From assembly GCF_024628725.1 (NCBI RefSeq), contig NZ_CP102409.1, positions 2,823,001 to 2,887,000 of the forward strand: DNA of 64,000 bases. Reading direction: 5' to 3'. The notes beneath the pieces are model-generated. The model worked only from the letters and a program-made list of their open reading frames with translations. It searched no databases and was not told the origin of the DNA. The DNA is from Ruegeria sp. YS9 (lineage in GTDB: Bacteria > Pseudomonadota > Alphaproteobacteria > Rhodobacterales > Rhodobacteraceae). A program made the translations under genes and the position numbers. Below are positions 21,735 to 30,412 of the stretch, in pieces. Each line of letters begins with the position of its first letter. Position 1 is the stretch's first letter.

Positions 21735-22895
21735 ATGATTTTTGAACCAAGGAACTTCTACGATACCGGCGGATCCCGGGATGAGCTTTCACTTTTTTCC
21801 TACGCCGCATACCTGATATCCCGCGCGCAGTTTCTGCAAGCCGAAGGCGATGACAGCGACCTTTTACTGTTGGGCCGCGATTGGGAAGAAACCGACGATG
21901 CCGTTCTGTCCAAACAGCTTGTCATGCTCGGATTCCGGCCAATTGACGACCGCCAGACATCCGCCCACGAATACATGAGTTTCCTTGATGGCCCCGATGA
22001 CCTAAGGCCCGTCGACCTGCTTACTTCGCCAGAACCTGAAGGGTATTACCAACATTTGTTCGAGGCGATCAAAGCAGCAGAGGAATGGCCCAGCGCCCAA
22101 CATATTGGCGCTGCTTTGAAGCTTGGACTGGCGGCCCCGGATTCAATTGTTGCTCTTGCCGCACTGAGTTCATGCCTCAAACTGTATTCGCCGGATTCTT
22201 TTCCGCCACGTCTTTGGCTTGGTGTGTTTACGGCGCGTTGGGCGCAGTTGGAGCCGCTCTCGCAAGATTTGCTTACTGTGTTGTCGTCCGCTCTGATTTC
22301 CGTCCCGCCGGGCTCGAAGGTTCCACCGGCCCCCGCGCAACAGAAAGCCGATGCGCCGGGGTTGCTTCTTGTTCATGGCACTCACTTCGAAGTCGATCCC
22401 GACCCCACATGGTACTATCCGCATGTCGGAGATCTGCACAATTACATCAAGCCGCATCGCAACGATATCTTTTCAGGACAGAACTACTATGAATGGGAGG
22501 GCCGGTGGTCCGATCGCGGCCGCCATATTGCTGCCAAACACCTGAAAAACTGGATAGATCTTGAGGCCTATCACGGCTGCGATGTGGTTGCCCACAGCCA
22601 CGGCTGCAATGTCGTCATGAAAGCCGCCGATATGGGGGCGCATTTCAACAAGGTCGTTTTCCTAAGCTGCCCGGTACACTGGCACAAGTACAACCTGAAT
22701 TCAGGCCGGATCAATGCGCCGTATTCCGTTCGGGTCTGGTTTGACTTGGTGATCCTGGCAGACGGCGGCAGACAAAAGTTCCCCGCCAGTGCCAACGTTG
22801 CCGACGAGGTCGTCGGAGGTTGGTTCAGCGGGCATTCTGCCACGCGGACATCACGGATTTGGGGCAATCATACATTGGAAGCAAAGCTGATCTGA
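21735..22895 (+). CDS. Alpha/beta-hydrolase-like protein with unknown N-terminal domain
   Basis: 386 residues, no family recognised. The C-terminal half has the outline of an alpha/beta hydrolase: a first strand LLLVHGTHF near residue 215, and a nucleophile-elbow-like VVAHSHGCN with Ser288. The expected G-x-S-x-G is changed to A-H-S-H-G. Late His residues (GHSAT, NHTLE) are candidate catalytic bases. The N-terminal 200 residues are mostly helical and acidic, without signal or membrane segment. The ribosome site is weak. It is convergent with the aldehyde dehydrogenase gene. Confidence 0.7.
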   Translation: MIFEPRNFYDTGGSRDELSLFSYAAYLISRAQFLQAEGDDSDLLLLGRDWEETDDAVLSKQLVMLGFRPIDDRQTSAHEYMSFLDGPDDLRPVDLLTSPEPEGYYQHLFEAIKAAEEWPSAQHIGAALKLGLAAPDSIVALAALSSCLKLYSPDSFPPRLWLGVFTARWAQLEPLSQDLLTVLSSALISVPPGSKVPPAPAQQKADAPGLLLVHGTHFEVDPDPTWYYPHVGDLHNYIKPHRNDIFSGQNYYEWEGRWSDRGRHIAAKHLKNWIDLEAYHGCDVVAHSHGCNVVMKAADMGAHFNKVVFLSCPVHWHKYNLNSGRINAPYSVRVWFDLVILADGGRQKFPASANVADEVVGGWFSGHSATRTSRIWGNHTLEAKLI

Positions 22896-22911: not shown

Positions 22912-24363
22912 CTAACCGTGAAACGCGGCAACTGTCTTCAACTGTGAAAAGCCGTACAAAGCTTCGAACCCTTTTTCGCGGCCGTGTCCGGATTTTCCCA
23001 CCCCGCCAAATGGCAGTTCAACGCCGCCACCAGCACCGTAGTTGTTTATGAAAACCTGACCCGAGTGCAATGCTTTCGCCAACCGCATCTGTCGCGCACC
23101 ATCCCGCGTCCAGACGCTGGCGACCAGGCCATATTCCGTACTATTCGCTATGGTCAGAGCCTGTTCTTCGGTGTCAAACGGGATCAGAACCTGAACCGGG
23201 CCGAATATCTCGTCCTGTGCCAACTGATGATCTGGCGGCACGTCTGCGAACAAAGTGGGCCGGACATAGGCTCCGGTTTCTGGCGCGTCATCGACAATCT
23301 GTCCCTGCGCAGCGATCGTCAGGTCCGTGGCTGTTTTCAGAAAGCCGCTGACAATCTGTCTCTGCCGGTCCGAGATCAACGGTCCAACGCGCAGATCCTG
23401 CATCGCCGGGCCGACGGTCAGTTCTTCATAGGCCTTGGCCATGCGCGATCTGACCTGTTCATAGACGCCCCGCTGCACCAGGATGCGGGACGAGGCCGAA
23501 CAGGTCTGGCCCGCGTTTTGGACACCCGCATTCACCAGAAACGGCAGCGCTGCATCCAGATCGGCATCGTCAAAAACCAATTGCGGGGATTTCCCGCCCA
23601 GTTCCAGCGTCACGGGCACCACGTTGCGTCCCGCCGCCTGCTGCACAAGGGCCCCGGTGGCAACCGAACCGGTGAACGAGATATGGTTGACTCCCCGATG
23701 CCCCGACAGCGCTGCACCCGCCTCGGCCCCCAGACCGGGCACGACGTTCAATGCTCCGGCTGGCAGCCCGGCCTGTTGCGCAAGATGGGCAAAGGCCAGC
23801 GCGGTCAGGCAGGCCTCTTCCGCAGGTTTCAGAACACAGGCGTTGCCCATGGCCAACGCCGCCCCGACGGAACGCCCGATAATCTGCATCGGATAGTTCC
23901 AGGGCACGATATGGCCCGTCACCCCATGCGGTTCGCGCAAGGTGTAGACGGTGTAGCCATCGAGATAGGGAATGGTCTCGCCCATCACCTTGTCGGCCGC
24001 GCCGCCATAGAACTCGCAATAGCGCGCCAGGGCGACCGCGTCTGCCCGGGCCTGTGTCAGCGGTTTGCCGACATCCATCGCCTCGAGCCGCGCCAGATCG
24101 TCCACCCGGTCCAGCACCAGCTGGCCCAACCGTGTCAGGATGCGGCCGCGTTCCAACGCCGTCTTTCGCCCCCAATCACCATACAACGCAGATCGGGCGG
24201 CTTGTACCGCCGCGTCGATATCCGCCTCGGACCCTCGGGCGATCCGGCAGATCTCGGTCCCGTCCGAAGGGTTGATCAAGGGCAGGCTGTCGCCCGCAGC
24301 CGCCCGGATCCAGCGCCCGCCGATCAGGCACAAGGTGGGATCAAACCAAATGTTCTGGGTCAT
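22912..24363 (-). CDS. NAD-dependent aldehyde dehydrogenase at the end of the peptide ABC operon
   Basis: 483 residues from the ATG at 24363 (GGAGG upstream). ALDH signatures are VTLELGGKSP, GQTCSASSR (catalytic Cys near residue 290) and PFGGVGKSGHGREKG. The closest relatives by pattern are betaine-aldehyde, gamma-aminobutyraldehyde or 4-guanidinobutyraldehyde dehydrogenases, but the substrate cannot be read from sequence. It follows the fused ABC ATPase gene after 33 nt in the same direction, suggesting that it processes an aldehyde derived from the imported compound (inference). Confidence 0.88.
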   Translation of the reverse strand: MTQNIWFDPTLCLIGGRWIRAAAGDSLPLINPSDGTEICRIARGSEADIDAAVQAARSALYGDWGRKTALERGRILTRLGQLVLDRVDDLARLEAMDVGKPLTQARADAVALARYCEFYGGAADKVMGETIPYLDGYTVYTLREPHGVTGHIVPWNYPMQIIGRSVGAALAMGNACVLKPAEEACLTALAFAHLAQQAGLPAGALNVVPGLGAEAGAALSGHRGVNHISFTGSVATGALVQQAAGRNVVPVTLELGGKSPQLVFDDADLDAALPFLVNAGVQNAGQTCSASSRILVQRGVYEQVRSRMAKAYEELTVGPAMQDLRVGPLISDRQRQIVSGFLKTATDLTIAAQGQIVDDAPETGAYVRPTLFADVPPDHQLAQDEIFGPVQVLIPFDTEEQALTIANSTEYGLVASVWTRDGARQMRLAKALHSGQVFINNYGAGGGVELPFGGVGKSGHGREKGFEALYGFSQLKTVAAFHG

Positions 24364-24396
24364 TTTGGGCCTCCAATCAGGCTCTAACAAGGAACT

Positions 24397-25995
24397 TTAC
24401 GCCGTCAGCGGCCTTATCTCGGGCAACCGGGGCGCAGCGGCAATCAGGGTTTGCGTATAGGGATGTTGCGGATTTTCGAACACCTGCTTGGTCTGACCCT
24501 GTTCGACGATCCGCCCGGACTGCATCACAAGCACACGGTCGGTGATCGTGCGGACAACGCTCAGGTCATGGCTGATGAACAGATAGGTCAGGTCATAGGC
24601 ATCGCACAGTTCAGCGAGCAGATCGAGGATCTGTGCACGGACCGAAACGTCAAGCGCCGAAACCGCCTCGTCGAACAGGATCAGATCGGGCCGGATGATC
24701 AGGGCGCGTGCAATGGCGATCCGTTGTCGTTGCCCGCCCGAGAATTCGTGGATGTACTTGCCCGCGTCGCCGGGGCTGAGGCCGACGGCCGTCAGTATTT
24801 CCGAGATCCGATCCCGCCGGTCTGATCCGGTGGGCGGGTCGTCCAGCAAATGGAAAGGCTCGGTGATCAGGCGCGCGACACGATGACGGGGGTTGAAGCT
24901 GCCATATGGGTCCTGAAACACCACCTGCATCTTCCGGCGCACGGCAAGGTTGGGTTTGTGCCCGGTGAAAACCGGCTGACCACCCAGCCGGATTTGACCG
25001 GACTGAACCTCCTCCAAGCCCAAAATTGCCCGTGTTAGGGTCGATTTTCCGCATCCGGATTCCCCAACCAAACCCAACCGCTCGCCTCGGTTGAGTGAAA
25101 AACTGACACCATCCACTGCCCGGTGATGGCGCGGCGCGTCCAACAGGCCTTTTCGGGGCAATCGGTAGTCCCGGACAACCTGGGTTACCTCCAGCAACGT
25201 TTGCGGTTGCGCGGGTTCCGGCAAAGTGACCTGATGGCCAGACGCCTCGAACAGCATTCGGGTATAAGGGTGATGCATGTGACGCAGCAGGTGCTGTGTG
25301 GCCCCGCTTTCAACCACTTCTCCGTGGCGCATGACGATGATCTGGTCCGCCATATCAGAGACAACGGCCAGATCATGGGTGATCATCAGCAGCCCCATGT
25401 CATATTCACGCACCAGCCCCTTGAGCAGGTCGAGGATCTGCGCCTGTGTCGTGACGTCCAGCGCTGTCGTCGGCTCGTCCGCGATCAGCAGCCTGGGGCG
25501 CAGAGCGATGGCCATGGCAATGACCACGCGTTGCCGTTGCCCGCCGGACAGTTCGTGCGGATAGCGGGAAAGGGGGAACCGATCAGGTGGCAGGCCGACC
25601 CGGGTCAGCACCTCTTTGGCGCGTGTTCGGGCCTGGGTCGGGGGCATCGCCTTGTGGATCAGGATCGTCTCCATCACCTGATCACCGATGGTTTTCACCG
25701 GATTGAGCGCTGTCATCGGTTCCTGAAACACCATCCCCATGGACGCGCCGCGCAAGGCGCACAAATCGGGCTCTGACCGTGTCAACAGATCCTGACCGTC
25801 CAGCCAGATCGCACCTTCCGTGCTGGCCCCATGCGGCAGCAGTTGCATCACCGCCAATGCGGTCATCGATTTGCCCGAGCCGCTTTCACCTGTCACCGCC
25901 ACGATCTGGCCGGGGTCGATCGACAAGCTGACCTGTTTCAGGATCGGCATCCCGTGGATCGTCAGCGACAGGTTTTCAATCTGCAACAAGCTCAT
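24397..25995 (-). CDS. Fused peptide-type ABC transporter ATPase (DppD-DppF-like tandem)
   Basis: 532 residues containing two complete ATPase modules. Module 1 has Walker A GESGSGKS, signature LSGGQRQRV and Walker [13 protein letters not shown]. Module 2 has [17 protein letters not shown] and [12 protein letters not shown]. Both end in the oligopeptide-type extension (HPYTRML / HPYTQTL), so this is a single-chain version of the DppD/DppF pair. It energises the two permeases encoded upstream; the genes overlap by 4 nt. Confidence 0.95.
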
Positions 25996-26807
25996 ACCCG
26001 CGCCACCCTGATCCGGGGATCCAGCCAGTCCCGCATTCCGTCGCCCAACAGGTTCAGACCCAGCACCGTGACGATGATCGCCAGACCCGGAATCAGAGCC
26101 AAATGCGGGGCAAAACTGACCATCGTCTGCGCGTCTGCCAGCATCCGGCCCCAGCTGGGCGTCGGAGGTTGAGCGCCCAGACCAACATAAGACAGGCCCG
26201 CTTCGGCCAGAATGCCAAGGCTGAACTGGATGGTGCCCTGCACGATCAGCAGGTTGGCCACGTTGGGCAGAATATGTTCAGCCGATATCCGCGCCACCCC
26301 TTTGCCCGACACACGGGCGGCGAGGATGAACTCTCTCTCCCAAAGCGACAAAGCAGCCCCGCGGGTGATACGGGCAAAGACGGGGATGTTGAAAATGCCG
26401 ATCGCAACAATGGCGTTGATTGCTCCGGCGCCATAGACGGCCGTGATCAGGATGGCGATCACCAGCGAGGGGAAAGCGAAGACCAGATCGTTGCCACGCA
26501 TGATGACCTCATCCAGCCAGGATCCTTTGCGCGCGGCCGCCGTCAGGCCAAGAGGAACGCCAAGTGCCATGCCGATGCCGACGGCCACCAATGCCACCGC
26601 AATCGACGTGCGTGCACCGACCATGATCATCGAGAATATGTCGCGGCCGAAATGATCGGTTCCAAACCAATGCTGCCCGTTTGGTGGCTGCAATTTATTG
26701 GGAATGTCCAGCGCGGCATGGTCGTAAGGGGTCCAGATGAACGAGACCAACGCGGCCAGAACCACCAGCGACGACAACAAGGCCCCAAGGATCAGGTTCC
26801 GGTTCAT
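25992..26807 (-). CDS. Peptide/nickel-type ABC transporter permease (DppC-like)
   Basis: About 271 residues from the ATG at 26807, whose A overlaps the upstream permease stop (ATGA). An N-terminal TM (ILGALLSSLVVLAALVSFIW) precedes HWFGTDHFGRDIFSMIMVGAR, the hallmark of DppC/OppC proteins. The EAA loop, RGAALSLWEREFILAARVSGKG, is intact. C-terminal TMs are ALIPGLAIIVTVLGLNLLGDG. Inner-membrane channel partner of the permease encoded at 26804-27751. Confidence 0.95.
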   Translation of the reverse strand: MNRNLILGALLSSLVVLAALVSFIWTPYDHAALDIPNKLQPPNGQHWFGTDHFGRDIFSMIMVGARTSIAVALVAVGIGMALGVPLGLTAAARKGSWLDEVIMRGNDLVFAFPSLVIAILITAVYGAGAINAIVAIGIFNIPVFARITRGAALSLWEREFILAARVSGKGVARISAEHILPNVANLLIVQGTIQFSLGILAEAGLSYVGLGAQPPTPSWGRMLADAQTMVSFAPHLALIPGLAIIVTVLGLNLLGDGMRDWLDPRIRVARV

Positions 26808-27751
26808 GTCCTGCTCCTCAGTCGTGGGTCCACGGCCGCATAAGCAAGATCGACAAGGAAATTGACCGTTATAACGGCAAAGACCAGCAGCATCACGACC
26901 GATTCCACGACGATGAGGTCTCGGGCAGAAATGGCCTGAAACACCAGCCGCCCGAGGCCCGGCAGATAGAACACCTGTTCGATGATGATCGACCCCGCCA
27001 GCAGAAAGGAAAACTGCAAGCCGATGATGGTCAGCACCGGGATCAGTGCATTTCGCACACCATGCCGCCACAGGGCCTGACGACGGGACAGGCCCTTGGC
27101 CCGAGCCGTGCGCATGAAATCCTCACCCAGAATGTCCAGCAAGGCCGACCGCATGACGCGCGCCAGAATCGCCGCCTGTGGCAAGGCAAGAGCCACGGCA
27201 GGCAGGGTCAGGGAATGCAGGCCGGCCCACAGACCGTCGTTCCAACCGGCAAACCCGCCCGCATTGAACCAGCGCAGGTTGATGGCGAAGATCAGCACAA
27301 GCATCATTGCAAACCAGAAATTGGGCACAGCAATCCCAAGCTGCGTCGCCCCCATCACTGCAAGGTCCCCCGGCTTGCCCCGACGCGCAGCGGCATAGAT
27401 TCCGGCGGGAAAGGCGATCAATGTGGACAGTGTCAGCGCGTAAAGCGCCAGGGGCAACGACACCCACAACCGGTCCGCGATCATCTGCGACACTGGCGTG
27501 CGGTAGGTGTACGAGGTGCCGAAATCGCCCTCCAGCATGCCGCCCACCCAATTGAAGTACCGCTGTATCCTGGACGCATCCAGGCCCAGCTCGGCCCGCA
27601 ACGCGGCCAGCGTGTCCTCCTGCGCGTTGACGCCCAGCATGAACGACGCCGGATCACCCGGGGCAACCTCGATCACGGCGAAGATGACCACCGAGGCGAC
27701 GGCCAGGCTGACAAGCAAGGAAATCAGTCGTTTGAGGACGTAGCGGAGCAT
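26804..27751 (-). CDS. Peptide/nickel-type ABC transporter permease (DppB-like)
   Basis: About 315 residues from the ATG at 27751; a GTG at 27760 is an alternative. Typical DppB/OppB features are MLRYVLKRLISLLVSLAVAS with an early TM, APGDPASFMLG, and the EAA loop MRSALLDILGEDFMRTARAKG. The terminal stretch is NFLVDLAYAAVDPRLR. Six TMs are expected. It lies 40 nt downstream of the ligand-gated channel gene and is coupled to the second permease by a 4-nt overlap. Confidence 0.95.
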   Translation of the reverse strand: MLRYVLKRLISLLVSLAVASVVIFAVIEVAPGDPASFMLGVNAQEDTLAALRAELGLDASRIQRYFNWVGGMLEGDFGTSYTYRTPVSQMIADRLWVSLPLALYALTLSTLIAFPAGIYAAARRGKPGDLAVMGATQLGIAVPNFWFAMMLVLIFAINLRWFNAGGFAGWNDGLWAGLHSLTLPAVALALPQAAILARVMRSALLDILGEDFMRTARAKGLSRRQALWRHGVRNALIPVLTIIGLQFSFLLAGSIIIEQVFYLPGLGRLVFQAISARDLIVVESVVMLLVFAVITVNFLVDLAYAAVDPRLRSRT

Positions 27752-27791
27752 TGGCACCACGTTAGGGTCACATCAGGCATGGGTCCAGCGT

Positions 27792-28862
27792 CTAAGGCAC
27801 CAGAAGGAAAGCGGAAACCGCATAGGCAACGATCGCGGCATACCCCAGTGGATAGATCCACTTGATCGCATAGTTGTCCAGGATGCGGGCCGTACCCTCC
27901 TTGCCGGACACTTTCAGCCGTCGCAGTGCGACGTTGAACACGATCAGCGCCCCGGTCATCAGAAACATGCACTGAAGGACAAAATCCAGAAAAGTCAGAT
28001 AACCCAGCTTGGGCAGATCAGCGGATATCGCCCAGTTGAACGCGACAAACACCAGCAGGTTGCCGCCCGCGATCTCGATCCTCCGGCGGTATTCATCCAG
28101 AAAAAACAGCGCCCAGCCGACCGAAATCAAGACAAGCATCGGCAGGAAAACCCGTATGACGTAGTATGTCAGATGTCGTTTGCCCTCGAAAACAAGCGCG
28201 ACCTGATCGCTTTCTTTGCCGGATAGCCCCAGAACCCTGGACGTTTCCAACCGTGCATTGTTCAGAATCCATTCTTCTTCGCCCAGTTGATCTCCGAGGC
28301 CGGAAAATTCATCCAGCGGATGGTAATTGACATATTCGGACGGAAAGACCGATACGACTTCGAAATGGAACTCCTGCGTGTCGAACGGGTATTTTCGGAA
28401 ATCGAAATGAGGCGCCTGGAGTGTAAGAGACGATTTTTCGACATACAGCACCCGTCCGTCGTACCGCAGGGATGCGGCGGATTCGTGGATCCACTTGTTG
28501 GACTGCTGATTGTGAATGACAAAAGCCGGCAGAACGGAACCTATACTTGCCGCATGATCGGCAAGATCGGGCGGGTTGAAAACCCTGATATCCCTTCCCA
28601 GTTCCTCGGGATCAAACGCCAGCGCAGGATCGGTCCATTCCACCCGCAAGACCACAACCGCGCCGTAGTTTTCAGCCTTTTGATCAACGCCGGTGATCTG
28701 GTCGATGCGAATGCCGACGCCAACATCCAACGGGTTCTCGGGCGTTCCGGGCAGGGCATCCAGCCGCCCACCCAACACATTCTGAGCCGTGGCCACGACC
28801 GAAGAACCGAACACCAGGAAAACACCTAAAACCAAGACGGGAATGGCGCGGAGCAAGAACAT
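27792..28862 (-). CDS. Prokaryotic pentameric ligand-gated ion channel
   Basis: 356 residues from the ATG at 28862. A signal peptide (about 1-26, ending VATA) precedes a beta-rich extracellular domain. The Pro-loop signature DFRKYPFDTQEFHF (residues 154-167) has the Cys-loop receptor pattern without the cysteines, as in GLIC/ELIC. Four TMs lie at about 233-256, 260-280, 288-312 and 334-354, with an RRIEIAGG turn into the pore helix. Known bacterial members are gated by protons, amines or other small ligands. It sits inside an ABC import operon between the binding protein and permease genes. Confidence 0.9.
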   Translation of the reverse strand: MFLLRAIPVLVLGVFLVFGSSVVATAQNVLGGRLDALPGTPENPLDVGVGIRIDQITGVDQKAENYGAVVVLRVEWTDPALAFDPEELGRDIRVFNPPDLADHAASIGSVLPAFVIHNQQSNKWIHESAASLRYDGRVLYVEKSSLTLQAPHFDFRKYPFDTQEFHFEVVSVFPSEYVNYHPLDEFSGLGDQLGEEEWILNNARLETSRVLGLSGKESDQVALVFEGKRHLTYYVIRVFLPMLVLISVGWALFFLDEYRRRIEIAGGNLLVFVAFNWAISADLPKLGYLTFLDFVLQCMFLMTGALIVFNVALRRLKVSGKEGTARILDNYAIKWIYPLGYAAIVAYAVSAFLLVP

Positions 28863-28891
28863 GCGTGAGAACACCCTGACACAATGAAAGG

Positions 28892-28916
28892 CCCGGGCCG
28901 CCCAGCGCGGCCTGGG
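28892..28916 (-). terminator. Intercistronic hairpin between binding protein and channel genes
   Basis: A 10-bp stem (28892-28901 with 28907-28916) with one A-C mismatch in the leftward RNA, closed by a short loop, lies in the 62-nt gap after the binding-protein stop. No strong T-run follows. Such stems often stabilise the binding-protein message or attenuate downstream genes. Confidence 0.5.
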
Positions 28917-28924
28917 CAGTACTA

Positions 28925-30412
28925 TTACTCGGACCAGCTGATCTGAGTCAGATCGATTGCGGCGGTGGGCGCGTTCTTCCAAAGGCCCTGAACTCCGACT
29001 TTCGCAACGCCCAGCTTGGCCAACTGGAACAGGTACCCATTGACATAGTCGCTTGCGATCAGGCGCTGCGCCTCACCCAGCAAACGGGTGCGTTCTTCGG
29101 GGTCGGTGGTGGTGTTCAGCATGTCCATCAGCGCCTGAAAATCCGTGCTGTCATACTGGAAGTAATAATCAGGTCGCGCATAAATGCCGATATCCATCGG
29201 CTCCGTGTGGCTGACAATGGTCAGGCCGAACTCCTTGCCCTTGAACACCGTTTCCAACCATTGCGCCCATTCCACATTGATGATCTCGGCCGTGATGCCG
29301 ACCTCGGCCAGCTGCGCCGCTATGATTTCGCCCCCGCGGCGGGCATAAGACGGCGGCGGCAGATGCAACGTGGTCTCAAACCCGTTTTCGAATCCTGCCT
29401 CTGCCAGCAACGCCCTTGCTTTTTCAGGGTCGTAAGCCGAATTGCCCGTCAGATCGACATACGCCGGATGATGCGGCGCAAAATGGGTTCCGATCGGGGT
29501 GCCATAGCCGAACATCGCGCCGTCGATGATGGCCTGCCGGTCGATGGCATGGGCCAGTGCCTGCCGGACCAGAATACTGTCAAACGGAGGTTGTTTGTTG
29601 TTGGTGGACAGGATCGTTTCGCCTTCGGTCGAGCCGACCAAAACCTGAAAGCGTGGATCGGCCTCGAACTGAGGCAGGTTTTCCGGCGCGGGGAAGTTGT
29701 CAAATACGTCGACATCCTCGGCCATCATGGCGGCAAAAGCGGCAGTCGGGTCCGAGATGAACTTGAATGTTGCAGTCTCTAATGCAGGCTGATCACCCCA
29801 ATAATCGGGATTGCGGTTCAGTGTGATGCTGTCACCCTGCACCCAGTTGCCAAAGGTATAGGCGCCAGTGCCAACTGGATTGGTCTTGATGTTTTCAATG
29901 CTCTCGGGCGCGACGATGACTGCGTCCCCCCAAGCCAGGTTGAACAGGAAATTTCCGTTTGGCTCTGACAGGGTGACTTTGACCGTAAGCGGATCAACGA
30001 CCTCGACGGTTTCGATACCGGCAAACAGGGCCTTTTGCGCGTTGGCGCTGTCTTCCGCGGTTGCGCGGTCAAGGCTGAATTTGACATCCTCGGCGTCCAT
30101 GGTGGTGCCATCATGGAAGATCACCCCGTCGTGCAGTTTGAAGGTATAGACCGTCCCGTCTTCGGAAATCTCCCAGCTTTCCGCCAAGCCGGGTACGACC
30201 GAACCATCGCCCATGAAACGTGTCAGACCTTCGAAGATATTGGTGTAAACCACCGAGTCGATGGCTTGCGCCGCCGCGCTTGTCGGATCCAGATGCGGAG
30301 GCTCAAGCTGCATCGCTATGGTGATGTCCGACTTGGCCAAAGCCTGCGTGGCAAGCAGGCTGGCCCCTACGGCCAGGGTCGATGCAAATGTCCGGAACAG
30401 GAATTTCGTCAT
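28925..30412 (-). CDS. Peptide/nickel-type ABC transporter substrate-binding protein
   Basis: 495 residues from the ATG at 30412 (GGAGAG upstream). A Sec signal ends ATQALA. The SBP family 5 pattern is visible: EPPHLDPTSAAAQAIDSVVYTNIFEGL, GTVYTFKLHDGVIFHDGT, NPVGTGAYTF and RQALAHAIDRQAIIDG. Periplasmic; delivers an oligopeptide-like or other amine-bearing solute to the permease pair. First gene of the operon SBP, channel, permease, permease, fused ATPase, aldehyde dehydrogenase. Confidence 0.95.
   Translation of the reverse strand: MTKFLFRTFASTLAVGASLLATQALAKSDITIAMQLEPPHLDPTSAAAQAIDSVVYTNIFEGLTRFMGDGSVVPGLAESWEISEDGTVYTFKLHDGVIFHDGTTMDAEDVKFSLDRATAEDSANAQKALFAGIETVEVVDPLTVKVTLSEPNGNFLFNLAWGDAVIVAPESIENIKTNPVGTGAYTFGNWVQGDSITLNRNPDYWGDQPALETATFKFISDPTAAFAAMMAEDVDVFDNFPAPENLPQFEADPRFQVLVGSTEGETILSTNNKQPPFDSILVRQALAHAIDRQAIIDGAMFGYGTPIGTHFAPHHPAYVDLTGNSAYDPEKARALLAEAGFENGFETTLHLPPPSYARRGGEIIAAQLAEVGITAEIINVEWAQWLETVFKGKEFGLTIVSHTEPMDIGIYARPDYYFQYDSTDFQALMDMLNTTTDPEERTRLLGEAQRLIASDYVNGYLFQLAKLGVAKVGVQGLWKNAPTAAIDLTQISWSE

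Follow-up and report, generated by a model that had tools for sequence, protein, structure and literature searches.

Why should a gene for a pentameric ligand-gated ion channel (pLGIC) lie inside the operon of a peptide-type importer? The question is raised by a locus of Ruegeria sp. YS9, contained in the 64,000 nucleotides (nt) from position 2,823,001 to 2,887,000 of contig NZ_CP102409.1 (the window, to which all coordinates refer). Six genes on the minus strand encode, in reading order, a solute-binding protein, the channel, the permeases DppB and DppC, a fused DppD-DppF ATPase (DppDF) and an aldehyde dehydrogenase (ALDH). An earlier note on this DNA had proposed a single amine-bearing ligand for importer, channel and ALDH alike. 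Taking the evidence as a whole, we consider it probable that the protein is a Ca2+-sensitive cation channel under purifying selection whose gene occupies a swappable slot in the operon.

The channel gene and its neighbours

The channel gene (27792..28862, minus strand; ATG 28862, TAG 27792) encodes a subunit of 356 amino acids (aa). The gene order and leftward direction described in the earlier note were confirmed for all six genes, and the overlaps or short gaps that it mentioned measure 62 nt between the binding-protein and channel genes and 31-40 nt between the channel and DppB genes, with an overlap of 4 nt between the genes for DppC and DppDF. When the channel protein was used as query, 50 loci (L numbers; genomes carry G numbers) were fetched. 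The order binding protein-channel-DppB-DppC-DppDF was found in 44 of them (L001-L042, L048, L050), four of which (L025, L030-L032) have extra genes between channel and DppB; the six others (L043-L047, L049) lack that order. Of 54 genomes of the genus, 53 have the binding protein and 38 the channel. In all 38 congeners with a full-length channel, the aligned binding-protein and channel pieces share a strand and are separated by 57-134 nt. Since 44 of the 50 loci and all 38 congeneric genomes keep the adjacency, it is more than chance. Because the adjacency is conserved, in one direction and with short gaps, the channel is likely co-transcribed with the importer.

The conserved adjacency is only one side of the picture, however, because the channel is missing from 15 of the 53 congeners that have the binding protein. 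The earlier note had named absence of the channel gene from the operon in close relatives as a sign against its proposal, and such absence occurs in part of the genus. All 15 channel-less congeners keep the binding protein, DppB, DppC, DppDF and ALDH, which rules out the channel as an obligatory part of the importer. A family sample of 295 genomes, mostly one per genus, was also searched, with a threshold of E up to 1e-150 for the binding protein. Any channel match was found in 24 of the 295 genomes and the binding protein in 178, 11 of which have an adjoining channel. A channel of at least 50% identity occurs in 13 genomes and stands beside the binding protein in those 11; the other two, G207 (channel with other neighbours) and G220 (partial hit), have no binding-protein match at 1e-150.

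The junction behind the binding-protein gene

Regions were fetched from the 15 channel-less congeners and from other genera (14 binding-protein regions without the channel). In nine of the congeners (L084, L085, L086, L088, L089, L090, L094, L095, L096), a protein of 338-339 aa is encoded on the same strand at the junction of the binding-protein and DppB genes; four have an opposite-strand gene for a 108-aa protein of the SH3_3 type there, and two have no gene (53 and 158 nt). One member of each slot-protein family was scanned against Pfam, and the L084 copy of the 339-aa protein gave no Pfam match. The 339-aa gene matched in 11 of 54 congeners, nine of them in the slot; G330 carries a 60% copy outside the slot and a channel as well, and G344 gave no more than a weak match (28%). 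In other genera, the same junction contains a cupin gene, an opposite-strand deacetylase-family gene, an esterase-like or a GMC-oxidoreductase-like gene (the last two judged by eye), or is empty; in L098, L113 and L116, three of the 14 regions, no DppB was found downstream of the binding-protein orthologue in the fetched stretch. A further 6.5 kilobases lie behind the channel in L025. The junction exceeds 300 nt in 70 of 76 distinct operons (20 of the 26 without the channel), a set that is not random but enriched for channel operons, most of it from the channel search; the other three junctions exceed this length in 0 of 76, 0 of 76 and 4 of 73. The junction is a slot that unrelated genes also use. 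The slot channel falls into two overlapping frames in L107 (G110) and L050, owing to a frame shift or a sequencing error.

Channel relatives of 44-59% identity have no peptide importer within the stretches read, which speaks against the proposal of the earlier note. They adjoin ispH and an NYN gene (L123), a histidine kinase and response regulators (L110), typA/bipA and alaS (L111, and L044 as read by eye) or sufS (L043, where the locus starts close to the channel and one side is unseen). A copy with stop codons stands beside sufS in L112 (read by eye). G100 has a 46% channel and does not belong to the 178 genomes in which the binding protein matched at 1e-150. Eight distant pLGIC loci were also read by eye; one of them, L129, has a solute importer directly upstream of the pLGIC, and two others lie near genes that resemble ccm heme-export genes (L125) and PqiB-type genes (L128).

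History and constraint of the slot channels

When mapped onto a tree that was built by a quick method from the four importer proteins (79 rows) and has many weak branches, the distribution of the channel needs 15 changes, at least 8 of which are forced by starred branches. In the channel tree, the slot channels, 53 in all, fall into a single clade set apart from nine outside relatives (98), at a point where long branches meet. Many independent acquisitions of slot channels are therefore not favoured. The importer proteins of L025 are 94% identical to those of the window and its channel 74%; this channel groups with those of L023, L024, L026 and L042, and its placement with its importer kin was rejected (p-AU 1e-7 in the approximately unbiased test). 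We read these data as one entry followed by mostly vertical descent, repeated loss or replacement and some exchange between species. A mosaic pattern was also observed in the pairs L010/L012 and L014/L016, in which synonymous divergence is 0.60-0.66 in the binding-protein gene and 0.12-0.16 in the channel gene, and this suggests recombination around the slot.

The ratio of non-synonymous to synonymous divergence (dN/dS) of the channel lies between 0.02 and 0.13 in all 12 chosen close pairs. Its median over these pairs is 0.074, as compared with 0.045 for the binding protein, 0.032 for both DppB and DppC, 0.098 for DppDF and 0.069 for ALDH. The channel is under purifying selection, with a constraint like that of its neighbours.

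The channel belongs to the sTeLIC/DeCLIC clade

The ligand-binding domain of the channel matched Neur_chan_LBD (PF02931; E 3e-13, 50.1 bits, cut-off 26), and the NCBIfam models LGIC_1 (93 of 500) and LIC (86.3 of 280.2) matched under their cut-offs. The own genome holds this single pLGIC match. Although the earlier note had called the channel ELIC-type, its nearest solved relatives, both by sequence and by structural alignment of the model, are sTeLIC (42%) and DeCLIC (38-39%). ELIC is not among the best 60 sequence matches or the 50 structural rows listed, which still allows for some similarity to it.

The four glutamates of the DeCLIC calcium site coincide in the alignment with E64 and E195-E197, and none of them varies among the 26 chosen relatives; in all, 80 positions are invariant across 26 diverse rows. 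In DeCLIC, calcium sits between E347 and E479-E481 (Lycksell et al., PMC9897478). At the predicted pore, L554 and F561 of DeCLIC align with L270 (9') and W277 (16'), and position 263 is acidic (E263), as in sTeLIC (D) and DeCLIC (E). Since the calcium-site and pore residues of DeCLIC align, calcium modulation and cation selectivity are likely by analogy. The tip of loop C (residues 204-222) is devoid of F, W and Y in the window and in 25 of 26 rows. Aromatic loop C residues mark the ELIC amine site, and their absence, seen in an alignment of these rows and not of ELIC itself, may speak against a classical amine cage. In sTeLIC, 4-bromophenethylamine and 4-bromoamphetamine bind in the vestibule as modulators (PMC11988449), and PDB titles name both compounds in sTeLIC crystals. 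The sTeLIC residues W75, L93 and Y104 of this amine site correspond to L111, A129 and Y140 here, and Y104 alone is kept.

A hairpin between binding protein and channel

A G+C-rich hairpin that the earlier note did not mention was found by folding the spacer (28891..28917, minus strand), right after the stop codon of the binding-protein gene. The longest stem has at least 7 pairs in 44 of 50 distinct channel operons as compared with 16 of 50 for a control stretch taken from within the gene. The median z is -2.2 as against -0.14 in the control, with z below -2 in 31 of 50. The first 60 nt of these stretches share only 30% ungapped identity, and at least 4 T within 8 nt after the stem occur in 16 of 50 operons. 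In the operons with the 339-aa protein the median z is -0.2 and one of nine lies below -2; a stem of at least 7 pairs is still present in five of nine. A promoter and terminator scan gave 2 promoter-like sites (4.0 in shuffles) and 14 terminator-like sites (11.9 in shuffles) and was not used as evidence; one terminator-like site, 28905-28893, falls inside the hairpin. The window had no Rfam match at gathering thresholds. Such hairpins usually set the expression of the binding protein above that of the downstream genes. The present one looks like this usual device, which would put the channel at the permease level, and may act as an attenuator or an mRNA stabiliser.

The importer and the aldehyde dehydrogenase

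The periplasmic solute-binding protein (28925..30412, minus strand; 495 aa) matched SBP_bac_5 (E 3e-94). Its best solved relative is YliB (1uqw, 177 bits), and it scored below the cut-off for all 11 NCBIfam models listed. The DppB-type permease (26804..27751, with ATG 27751 as start and GTG 27760 as alternative) and the DppC-type permease (25992..26801) matched BPD_transp_1 with E 6e-39 and 9e-33, respectively. The fused DppDF (24397..25995; 532 aa) contains two ABC_tran stretches and scores above the cut-off of PRK11308, an NCBIfam subfamily model (514.5 bits against 408). With SBP_bac_5, two BPD_transp_1 permeases and ABC_tran with oligo_HPY, these genes qualify as a peptide/nickel/opine ATP-binding cassette (ABC) importer. 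The amine importer supposed in the earlier note was not borne out, as this importer carries no amine-specific mark. The one lead on the importer substrate comes from R. pomeroyi, in which SPO0098 may be part of this same operon. SPO0098, a peptide/opine/nickel ATP-binding gene, is the target of an antisense RNA (PMC4809877).

The ALDH (22912..24363, minus strand; ATG 24363, TTG 24390 as alternative) matched Aldedh (E 2e-153), and its closest solved relative, 4ywe, is titled 'putative aldehyde dehydrogenase'. No curated cut-off was reached among 25 of 44 NCBIfam models listed. The assignment as an aminoaldehyde-type dehydrogenase was not supported, since the scores for betaine aldehyde (BADH, 422.9 bits, cut-off 668.6), aminobutyraldehyde (PRK13473, 420.9 bits, cut-off 615) and PuuC (359.9 bits, cut-off 850) were all below the cut-offs. 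Between the NAPRT and ALDH genes, on the plus strand (21735-22895), lies a 386-aa gene without Pfam or NCBIfam match. Its relative was found in L011 alone among the 50 channel loci (46%), which indicates that the far end of the operon takes accessory genes too.

Discussion

In the explanation that we prefer, five copies of the subunit would form a cation channel in the inner membrane, and its extracellular domain would lie in the periplasm. Binding of calcium at subunit interfaces, by E64 on one side and E195-E197 on the other, would favour the closed state, and loss of calcium, a change of pH or a vestibular modulator would open the channel to monovalent cations. The gene would have entered the binding-protein/DppB junction once in the lineage and be carried on the importer transcript, below the hairpin. 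Loss, exchange between species or replacement by unrelated genes would have followed, and the importer would have continued without it. The channel thus resembles a removable passenger that has a task of its own, probably independent of the importer, rather than an importer part.

Several points weigh against this explanation. The trees were made by quick methods and contain many weak branches as well as long ones that meet, and the operons counted at the junction are, as said, not a random set. The distances of channel and importer correlate (r 0.81, 1378 pairs), as expected from mostly vertical co-inheritance. In all 53 slot rows the channel runs in the direction of the operon, and it is retained across genera down to about 53% identity, which is long for a mere passenger. 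In L129 (4696-9035; G180), a distant pLGIC (26%) lies directly downstream of a TAXI-type binding protein and DctM of a TRAP importer, and these genes lie downstream of an orthologous Dpp cluster; this single case of a second transporter neighbourhood favours a link between channel and transport. As sTeLIC takes amine modulators, the window channel may be modulated by amines as well. Finally, DeCLIC is titled open at pH 5 with 10 mM Ca2+ (9fth), so that calcium alone need not decide gating.

The proposal of the earlier note, in which the binding protein shares one amine-bearing ligand with the channel or delivers it, the ALDH acts on the same ligand and the channel reports it by ion flux, appears improbable to us. 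The conserved adjacency of channel and binding protein, the bromoamines that bind sTeLIC and the importer neighbourhood in L129 fit it, and there is a precedent in bacterial channels that stand beside a stand-alone gene of periplasmic binding protein type II (PBP-II) or are fused to a PBP-I domain, for which cooperation was proposed (PMC549065). As the main reading it was rejected because the importer genes persist without the channel in 15 of 53 congeners and the ALDH reaches no listed amine model; the junction also takes unrelated genes. The channel of G100 without a binding-protein match at 1e-150, the loop C tip lacking aromatics in 25 of 26 rows and the vestibular position of a sTeLIC amine site of which one residue is kept argue in the same direction. 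The junction could instead be a modular site that takes exported accessory proteins, whose periplasmic action would be on this importer or on its membrane energetics; the calcium-sensitive channel would then tie uptake to the ion or membrane-potential state, and the replacements would be functional alternatives. The signal-peptide-like starts, judged by eye, of the channel, the 339-aa protein and the SH3 protein would suit such a site, to which we give little credence.

Coupling of expression alone, in which a channel useful by itself (in an ion, pH or calcium response) is kept where it gains importer-level expression and shares no ligand, is unlikely. It would account for the same strand and second position in all 53 rows and for a preceding hairpin that is kept as structure and not as sequence, whereas the opposite-strand SH3 and deacetylase genes in the slot cannot use the importer promoter and the region behind the binding-protein gene is no longer distinctive in the 339-aa operons. 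That the junction merely tolerates insertions and the channel is currently useless is very improbable, and this reading was rejected on dN/dS. The high turnover of slot content, the stop-codon copy of G007 outside the slot and the frame-shifted slot copy of G110/L050 would agree with it, but the low ratios in all 12 pairs and the 80 invariant positions do not.

If the channel is a constrained gene in a swappable slot, its function is testable through the operons that naturally have or lack it at the same spot (38 and 15 congeners), and these marine bacteria, with many deposited strains, offer a ready-made comparison for what the channel adds. A caution also follows: adjacency to a binding-protein gene, on which the idea of a chemoreceptor partly rests, may stem from a slot that tolerates insertions.

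Comparison with known systems

As here, a channel gene beside a PBP-II-type gene was described by Tasneem et al. (PMC549065), who proposed cooperation and a chemoreceptor role. Neither a whole import operon nor replacement by unrelated genes is part of that paper as consulted, and the words Silicibacter and Rhodobacter are absent from its main text. The terms operon, genomic context, Ruegeria, Silicibacter, periplasmic and horizontal gene transfer do not occur in the main text of Jaiteh et al. 2016 (PMC4795631).

Among the solved channels, sTeLIC of a Tevnia endosymbiont (PDB 6fl9) differs in its vestibular W75, which is L111 in the window channel, and in the F residues of its loop C stretch, of which the window channel has none. 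DeCLIC of Desulfofustis (PDB 6v4a/7q3g) has all four calcium-site glutamates in common with the window channel. Its 642-residue chain carries two N-terminal domains, whereas the window channel lacks them, with 356 aa and the Pfam domain from residue 40. Relatives from Chloroflexota and Thiocapsa (L045, L046, L047, L049) have frames of 632-655 aa with an N-terminal extension as in DeCLIC. ELIC of Erwinia is amine-gated and of the same superfamily as the window channel. Inhibition by calcium, which the glutamates suggest for the window channel, has been reported for ELIC too (PMC9897478).
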